A stretch of DNA of 64,000 nt from Buchnera aphidicola (Mindarus keteleerifoliae) (GTDB taxonomy: Bacteria; Pseudomonadota; Gammaproteobacteria; Enterobacterales; Enterobacteriaceae): contig NZ_CP135027.1 in assembly GCF_039392895.1 (NCBI RefSeq), positions 310,001-374,000 on the forward strand. Direction: 5' to 3'. Numbering within the stretch: the first letter of the stretch is position 1; every line of letters starts with the position of its first letter. Shown one piece after another: positions 36,623 to 40,116 of the stretch. The notes below the pieces were generated by a model. The model saw only the letters and a list, made by a program, of their open reading frames with translations. It made no database searches and was not told the origin of the DNA. The position numbers and the translations under genes are program-made.

Positions 36623-36874
36623 ATGATGAAAAAAACAATAAAATCATTATTATTAAAAGAAAAATTTTTAGAAAAAGTTTATATAAAAGGAGATAATTAT
36701 CACTTAAAAATAATAGCAATTAGTAAAAAATTTATTACAATGGAAGAAAAGAACAAACAACAAATTATCTATTCTCCTTTAACTAAATTGATTACAAGCA
36801 ATAAAATACATGCTCTTACAATTGAAACATATACTCCAAAAGAATGGGAAATTTACAAAAAAAAAACAAATTAA
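36623..36874 (+). CDS. ibaG: BolA-family protein IbaG (YrbA)
   Basis: Small BolA-like protein; E. coli IbaG partners with monothiol glutaredoxin in iron-sulfur trafficking and is linked to acid stress. The 83-residue protein has the BolA fold pattern: a variable N-terminal helix, VYIKGDNYHLKIIAISKKF in the KH-like core, and the C-terminal IHALTIETYTPKEWE, matching E. coli IbaG's IHAVSIKAYTPAEW-like end. It is immediately upstream of the murA relic, as ibaG precedes murA in E. coli. It is intact although murA is dead. Confidence 0.9.
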   Translation: MMKKTIKSLLLKEKFLEKVYIKGDNYHLKIIAISKKFITMEEKNKQQIIYSPLTKLITSNKIHALTIETYTPKEWEIYKKKTN

Positions 36875-36894: not shown

Positions 36895-38186
36895 ATAAAA
36901 AAACTTCGCATATTAAGACATGAAAAATTTAATGGAAAAGTTAAAATTTCTGGAGCTAAAAATTTTAAATTATCTGTAGTATTTTTATCTTTCAGTTAAA
37001 CATCTAATAAAAATTAAAAATCTGCTAAAAATAAAAGATATAAAAATAGCAATTAGATTATTAATCAAATTAAGTTCTTAAATTGAATTTAAAAATTTTA
37101 TATACTTTAATACTAGTTCTATAACCAATATAAAAATACCTTATAATTTAAGAATTTCTATTAGAAGATTCAATATAGACAAAAAAACTTTTATTAATTC
37201 ATTTTAAAAATACTAAAATTTTTTTCCAGGAGGATATAAAATTAAAAAAAACTCATAGATTTTTATTCAATTACATTAAAAAAATGAAAGTTTTCATTAC
37301 AATTAAAATATGAATATATTTTAGAAAAAATATCTAAAAAATTTATAGAAAATAAAATTACTTTAAAAAAAACAGTATCAAAACTACTGGTGTCATTGTT
37401 AGTATTACTGTTTTAGTAAAATAAATATCCGTAATTAATTGTGCTACTTAAGAACTTTAAATACAGCGTATTACTAATTTTCTAAATTATTGAAATGCAA
37501 AAATTATAGAAGTTGAAATGAAAAACATTCATTCAAAAGGTATGCTATCTAATGAGAAAAAATTAGAGAATATCTACTGATAAAATGAATGGAAACGGGA
37601 ACTTTTTTAAATAACTAGTTCAATTTAAAGAGGATGTATTATATATCATAAAACTAATCCTTTTTTATTTTAAAAAACTTTAGAAATTTTAAATAAAACA
37701 GGAGATAAAATCAATATTAAAAAAGACTGAAATTACCTTAAACATGAAAGAAAAAAGACCAAATTTAGTCAGTATTAATATTGCCTCGCGCATTCTAAGT
37801 GAGTTTCCAACTGATCTATAAGTAAATTTCACTTTATTAAATATAACATCTTTAGGAAAAAGCAAGATAACTGAAACTATGTTTAAGAACAAATTTCTTT
37901 GTATATTTAAATTAATCAAAATGGGTTCAAACATCATCATTAAAAATAAAAAAATGATATTTTTAGAAATTAAAAACTATTTTATTCAAAATTAATAACA
38001 ACAGATTTTAAATTATCGGCTAATTTAGTTTTAGTTAGTTATATTGCTAAATAAACTTCCTTAATTAATAAAGTTTTTATATCAAAAAAATGTGAAAACT
38101 TAACAAAAAATTTAATGTTCTTAGAACAAATATTATATTACTTAAAAACAATTAATTTAAATAAAATTATTTTTTGTACTCACTAA
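36895..38186 (+). pseudogene. murA: Degraded murA (UDP-GlcNAc enolpyruvyltransferase)
   Basis: MurA commits UDP-GlcNAc to peptidoglycan synthesis. Across about 1.29 kb, fragments match E. coli MurA in order but in shifting frames with many stops. They are: KLRILRHEKFNGKVKISGAKN (read in two overlapping parts), FFPGGYKI at the active-site loop, TTGVIVSITVLVK, TDKMNGNGNF, NMKEKRPN, SEFPTDL, VNFTLLNITSLGKSKITET and TTDFKLSANLVLVSYIAK. The start codon position is ATA (36895), and the catalytic cysteine of PGGC is Tyr (TAT 37235-37237). E. coli murA is 1,260 bp, so little length has been lost. It is clearly inactive, and recent enough to remain legible. Confidence 0.93.
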
Positions 38187-38350: not shown

Positions 38351-38689
38351 ATGCATGCAGTTTTTAAAACCGGGGGGAAACAATATAAAGTAAATGTCGG
38401 ACAGATAATTCGAATAGAAAAATTAAACATTTCTGCCGGAAATAATATCATTTTCAAAAACATTTTACTTATTACTGACACTTCAACAATTAAAATAGGT
38501 TCTCCTAATATTTTAGGAAGTACAATTGAAGCTAATATTTTGCGTCATGGGAAATCTAAAAAAATTAATATAATCAAATTTAATCGTAGAAAACATTACA
38601 AAAAAAAACAAGGACACCGACAATTTTTCACCGATATAAAAATTTTAAATATACATTATCCGGAAAGAGATATCAAAAATGGCACATAA
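38351..38689 (+). CDS. rplU: 50S ribosomal protein L21
   Basis: Large-subunit protein binding 23S rRNA. Conserved segments are [36 protein letters not shown] (in two parts) and [11 protein letters not shown]. The protein is 112 residues, against 103 in E. coli. The extra C-terminal residues ([10 protein letters not shown]) run past the normal stop and overlap the rpmA start by 11 bases. A GGAG ribosome binding site precedes the ATG. It is cotranscribed with rpmA and probably obgE. Confidence 0.96.
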
Positions 38690-38933
38690 AAAAGCAGGTG
38701 GTTCTACTAGAAATGGAAGAGATTCTCATTCCCAGAGACTGGGTATAAAACGTTTTGGAGGAGAATTTATATTAGCTGGAAGTATCATAGTACGTCAAAG
38801 AGGAACTAAATTTCATCCTGGGAAAAATGTTTCTTGCGGAAAAGATCATACTATTTTTGCTATCAAAAGTGGAATAGTGAAATTTGAAACTAAAGGTTTA
38901 AAAAAAAGAAAATTTGTAAGCATTTTAAATTAG
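38679..38933 (+). CDS. rpmA: 50S ribosomal protein L27
   Basis: Large-subunit protein whose N-terminus reaches the peptidyl-transferase centre. It has 84 residues. [16 protein letters not shown] is the invariant start, followed by [23 protein letters not shown] (in parts), [16 protein letters not shown] and the end. Its ATG lies inside the rplU 3' end, so the two are probably translationally coupled. Confidence 0.97.

Positions 38934-39057: not shown

Positions 39058-40116
<1,059 letters not shown>

Follow-up and report, generated by a model that had tools for sequence, protein, structure and literature searches.

The window, by which we mean the whole stretch of 64,000 nucleotides analysed here, corresponds to C1:310001-374000 in a genome made of a 542,511-bp chromosome and two small plasmids. 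The chromosome (sample 19, CP135027) is that of the Buchnera of Mindarus keteleerifoliae (PMC11193766), and one of the plasmids, of 6,435 bases, shares 99.8% identity with a plasmid from Buchnera aphidicola of the same aphid. The segment of interest carries the following features, in window positions.

36623..36874, + strand: ibaG (BolA family), intact, 83 aa
36895..38134, + strand: murA pseudogene, opening with ATA; a frameshift-aware profile finds about 12 in-frame stops and 10 frameshifts
37226..37243, + strand: remnant of the PGGCKI active-site loop, reading PGGYKI, with Tyr in place of the catalytic Cys
38351..38689, + strand: rplU (ribosomal protein L21), intact, right flank of the murA slot
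38679..38933, + strand: rpmA (L27), intact
39097..40116, + strand: obgE, intact; functional control, also used for finding relatives

MurA catalyses the first step in making the cell wall. Where the start of its gene is expected, at 36895-36897, the window reads ATA, a rare start codon in NCBI table 11. This is by itself a weak sign of decay; it is the stops and frameshifts that make the case for a pseudogene. A frameshift-aware alignment with a profile built from 14 intact MurA sequences places MurA residues 1-414 at 36895-38134, with a score of 409 against 26 +/- 2.7 (maximum 33) for 40 dinucleotide shuffles. A functional MurA (TIGR01072) has an open frame of about 417 codons and a cysteine in its PGGC loop. 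Here the frame is broken by 12 stops and 10 frameshifts, the best single-frame piece spans only positions 270-354 of the model and scores below its cut-off, and the loop, PGGCKI in intact Buchnera MurA, is encoded as PGGYKI (CCA GGA GGA TAT AAA ATT). Invariant MurA residues are left at 54 of the 112 aligned positions; the same test applied to the functional neighbour obgE gives 98 of 101.

These results bear out the preliminary description, which had reported a near-complete murA with an ATA start, a Cys to Tyr change and many stops and frameshifts. Of the extent that it proposed, 36895-38186, the start stands, while the end lies about 50 bases past the alignable part. Its statement that ibaG is intact also holds: the product shares 40% identity with E. 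coli IbaG (E 2.8e-17), and each of the other two Mindarus genomes has the gene too, with 71-73% identity. Intact murA occupies the ibaG-rplU slot in G195, G179, G020, G046 and G032, and in the Buchnera of Artemisaphis, Baizongia, Melaphis and Nipponaphis the gene order is identical, with murA intact in exactly that slot. Full-length homology and syntenic position thus agree, and 36895-38134 is a murA pseudogene between intact ibaG and rplU.

The preliminary description had made its reading depend in advance on there being no second murA, and the whole genome yields none. The curated MurA model matches only the relic and aroA, a second member of the family that is not murA, in an assembly whose completeness of 98.5% by marker genes stops short of proof that nothing is missing. 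A plasmid search with the murA region gave no match. In the two Mindarus genomes used for comparison, G001 (Mindarus japonicus) and G002 (assigned to Mindarus since it groups with G001), the same model matches aroA alone.

In two related small symbiont genomes of one genus, G158 and G008 (loci L112 and L113), murA is split by an identical frame break at a AATTTTTTG run, at about locus position 1505. The protein is otherwise well conserved on either side of the break, which points to rescue by slippage or to an early lesion common to both.

The remainder of the peptidoglycan pathway

The rest of the pathway was sought by tblastn with E. coli proteins and intact Buchnera homologues, and by domain profile searches. 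Three further relics were recognized, each scoring above 50 shuffles.

C1:50442-49702: murB relic, up to 16 stops
C1:207701-207072: murC relic, 15-17 stops
C1:206918-206258: ddlB relic, many stops

The second of these was named murC because it lies directly before ddlB, besides the match itself. With tblastn, the genome gives no accepted match to mraY, murE, murF, murG or murI, nor to ftsI, ftsW, ftsL, ftsQ, mrcB, mrdA or mrdB, and murD has no match as a separate gene. Likewise no match was found to dacA, dacB, amiB, amiC, mltA, emtA or mepM, nor to alr, ddlA, glmS, glmM or glmU. The transpeptidase domain (PF00905) and the MraY-type transferase (PF00953) are absent from all three Mindarus genomes in the profile searches. 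Thus the mur, mra, mrcB and ddl genes whose inspection had been recommended are all either absent or relics.

Some candidates were set aside. The sole Mur ligase domain detected by profile, at C1:161504, belongs to a FolC-like protein, and the other two Mindarus genomes also have no Mur ligase beyond a FolC-like one. Judged from their sequences, a weak murF match (C1:499122-498166) is an exonuclease I-like protein and a weak ftsW/mrdB match (C1:255652-255236) a YciC-like membrane protein.

The interval between rsmH and ftsA measures about 13 kb in E. coli, 2.8 kb in the M. keteleerifoliae Buchnera, 0.7 kb in G001 and 1.8 kb in G002. ftsA and ftsZ themselves are intact in the M. keteleerifoliae Buchnera. 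Its gene content is that of a peptidoglycan-less Buchnera, both in lacking functional genes for lipid II synthesis (murA-G, mraY) and in the loss of every polymerase or transpeptidase looked for (PF00905, ftsI, ftsW, mrcB, mrdA, mrdB).

A cell that has neither a polymerase nor any enzyme for making lipid II should be unable to produce peptidoglycan. The earlier suggestion that peptidoglycan synthesis has ceased is therefore well supported by gene content, although by that of the whole pathway rather than by murA alone, because gene content taken by itself has been misleading in Moranella and in the Buchnera of Rhopalosiphum maidis. Escapes of either type are unlikely here, since none of the pathway is left in the symbiont. 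We consider it very likely that murA became a pseudogene when selection on wall genes lapsed, and that neither lipid II nor peptidoglycan is made. The wall would no longer have been needed inside the host cell; the peptidoglycan genes would then have escaped selection, to be progressively erased by point mutations and frameshifts, by deletions and by AT-drift. Of these genes murA, murB, murC and ddlB are still readable as relics, the others having passed beyond recognition. The data show the relic, the lack of another murA and the lack of the remaining pathway; that the living cell has no wall, and that relaxed selection and drift are the cause, we infer from them.

Could the cell nevertheless build a wall with help from outside? 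MurA and the other enzymes of precursor synthesis might come from the aphid or a co-symbiont, in the way that the mealybug provides for Moranella; the Planococcus citri/Moranella precedent, described in PMC12176269, speaks for such a mosaic, as does the continued presence of MurJ and UppS. However, the membrane steps that a mosaic symbiont needs for itself (MraY, MurG and penicillin-binding proteins in a mosaic of the Moranella type) are gone: mraY, murG, all SEDS polymerases and all penicillin-binding proteins are missing, in keeping with the lack of PF00953 and PF00905. By contrast, G085 (538,294 bases), which we take to be probably Moranella, has mraY and three transpeptidases despite lacking murA and the Mur ligases. 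The transferred aphid genes that Smith et al. discuss encode putative hydrolases of peptidoglycan and no mur synthesis enzymes (PMC9116674). A mosaic wall is thus extremely improbable.

Two other explanations concern the slot itself. Long homopolymers in AT-rich genomes are error-prone, and the stops and frameshifts might be sequencing or assembly errors in a working murA; yet half of the invariant MurA residues are substituted, the adjacent genes have conserved open frames, the remaining wall pathway is missing too, and the two other Mindarus genomes have no murA in the same slot, so that errors are scarcely conceivable as the cause. Alternatively, the relic may now serve another role, for instance in front of the rplU-rpmA-obgE operon as its leader or spacer, as the persistence of about 1 kb of non-coding DNA at the slot in all three Mindarus genomes might suggest. 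We find this very unlikely, given that the three slots show hardly any alignment away from the start of rplU, have unequal lengths (1476, 1092 and 985 bases), fall to 9-10% GC in the sister genomes and match no Rfam family. Decay of murA under lapsed selection is the reading retained below.

MurJ and UppS

One point against loss of the wall is that MurJ and UppS are intact, which is unexpected with nothing left to flip. MurJ flips lipid II across the membrane, and UppS makes the lipid carrier. The murJ gene lies on the - strand at C1:308500-309999, so that the window begins right after it. Eleven Buchnera genomes that lack both murA and MraY have an intact murJ, namely that of M. keteleerifoliae and G075, G094 (Thelaxes), G188 (Anoecia), G065, G054 (Ceratoglyphina), G183 (Chaitoregma), G061 (Sarucallis), G186 (Therioaphis), G102 (Greenidea) and G012 (Cinara confinis). 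The cavity residues are conserved: in E. coli numbering, none of the 11 deviates at R18, D39, R270 or E273, one deviates at R24 and two at R52. These charged residues matter for MurJ function. Two wall-less pairs give murJ dN/dS ratios of about 0.21 (0.130/0.625) and 0.20 (0.143/0.705).

Retention of murJ is patchy, the gene being gone from both other Mindarus genomes and from several more. It does not track the flagellar export apparatus, as a test with FlhA fails both ways: FlhA occurs without MurJ in G001, G002, G121, G093 and G160, and MurJ without FlhA in G065 and G020. Nor does it track UppS, which is lost in 8 of the 11 murJ-retaining wall-less Buchnera. The retention of murJ in wall-less Buchnera is already partly documented, by the tabulation for Lachninae described below, but the open papers searched gave no explanation for it. 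There is perhaps an even chance that selection keeps MurJ for some function that is not lipid II export, in lineages unable to make lipid II, and this poses a testable question as to the job of a lipid II flippase where no lipid II exists.

The uppS gene (C1:219503-220183) is intact and kept in all three Mindarus genomes, though no undecaprenyl-linked wall precursor is possible there; it is lost in most other wall-less Buchnera checked.

Age of the loss

At invariant MurA positions, the decay exponent of the relic is 0.56 (0.42-0.73) under an F81-type model, a value that hangs on a simple model and one alignment. It may overestimate the decay, as the real relic outscores simulated relics of that age. 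Four-fold sites in ten genes give 0.93-1.04 between the M. keteleerifoliae Buchnera and the other two, or about 0.5 per lineage. Constraint would therefore have lapsed at about the time when the Mindarus lineages parted. The earlier claim of a recent loss is in this light only partly supported: the relics are still readable and the loss thus late enough for them to persist, but it did not happen yesterday, the decay being about as deep as the divergence of the Mindarus species.

The slots of G001 and G002 (1092 and 985 bases) bear no murA trace, their scores being at shuffle level. In simulations, a relic dating from the species split usually remains detectable, with or without a 400-base deletion, unlike what these two slots show; the branch lengths of the Mindarus Buchnera are similar. 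Losses at different times and unequal erosion are both possible explanations; a murA loss shared by the three and datable to their common ancestor would be possible as well.

Two Buchnera of one genus, G020 and G165 (Taiwanaphis), offer a good pair for dating wall loss. They have sharply different wall gene sets: G020 has murA, Mur ligases, transpeptidases, MraY, MurJ and UppS, and G165 has none of them, its weak Mur ligase-domain match being probably FolC.

Comparison with other symbionts

Loss of peptidoglycan genes has been published for the Buchnera of several aphid subfamilies outside Aphidinae (PMC9116674). No paper was found that reports wall loss in Mindarinae Buchnera; the present case adds this subfamily to the list and is otherwise an ordinary instance of a known pattern. 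It would also provide one more natural example of FtsZ and FtsA being retained without any wall. In the Lachninae, another aphid subfamily, murA, mraY and ddl are absent from all 15 Buchnera genomes, ftsZ and ftsA are kept, and murJ is retained in 40%, none of them with murA, according to passages of a survey of division genes (PMC10591338) that tabulate murJ retention and contain no discussion of it.

Partial pathways can still yield a wall. The Buchnera of Rhopalosiphum maidis (Aphidini) lacks some mur genes, and its wall was seen by D-alanine labelling (PMC9116674); it retains much of the pathway, whereas the M. keteleerifoliae Buchnera has neither lipid II synthesis nor polymerisation. Moranella, in Planococcus citri, makes peptidoglycan using host-supplied precursor enzymes (PMC12176269, citing Bublitz et al. 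2019). Like the M. keteleerifoliae Buchnera it has no murA and misses other precursor genes, but it keeps much of the pathway, the membrane steps and the last ones included, and its wall is completed by the host.

The closest likeness is to the lineages of Smith et al. 2022 (PMC9116674), in which genes for lipid II synthesis, polymerases and remodelling are nearly all lost, as here, and some of which also keep ftsA and ftsZ. Unlike them, the M. keteleerifoliae Buchnera has four readable relics, and two related genomes show no trace at the places checked, so that the loss is caught part-way.
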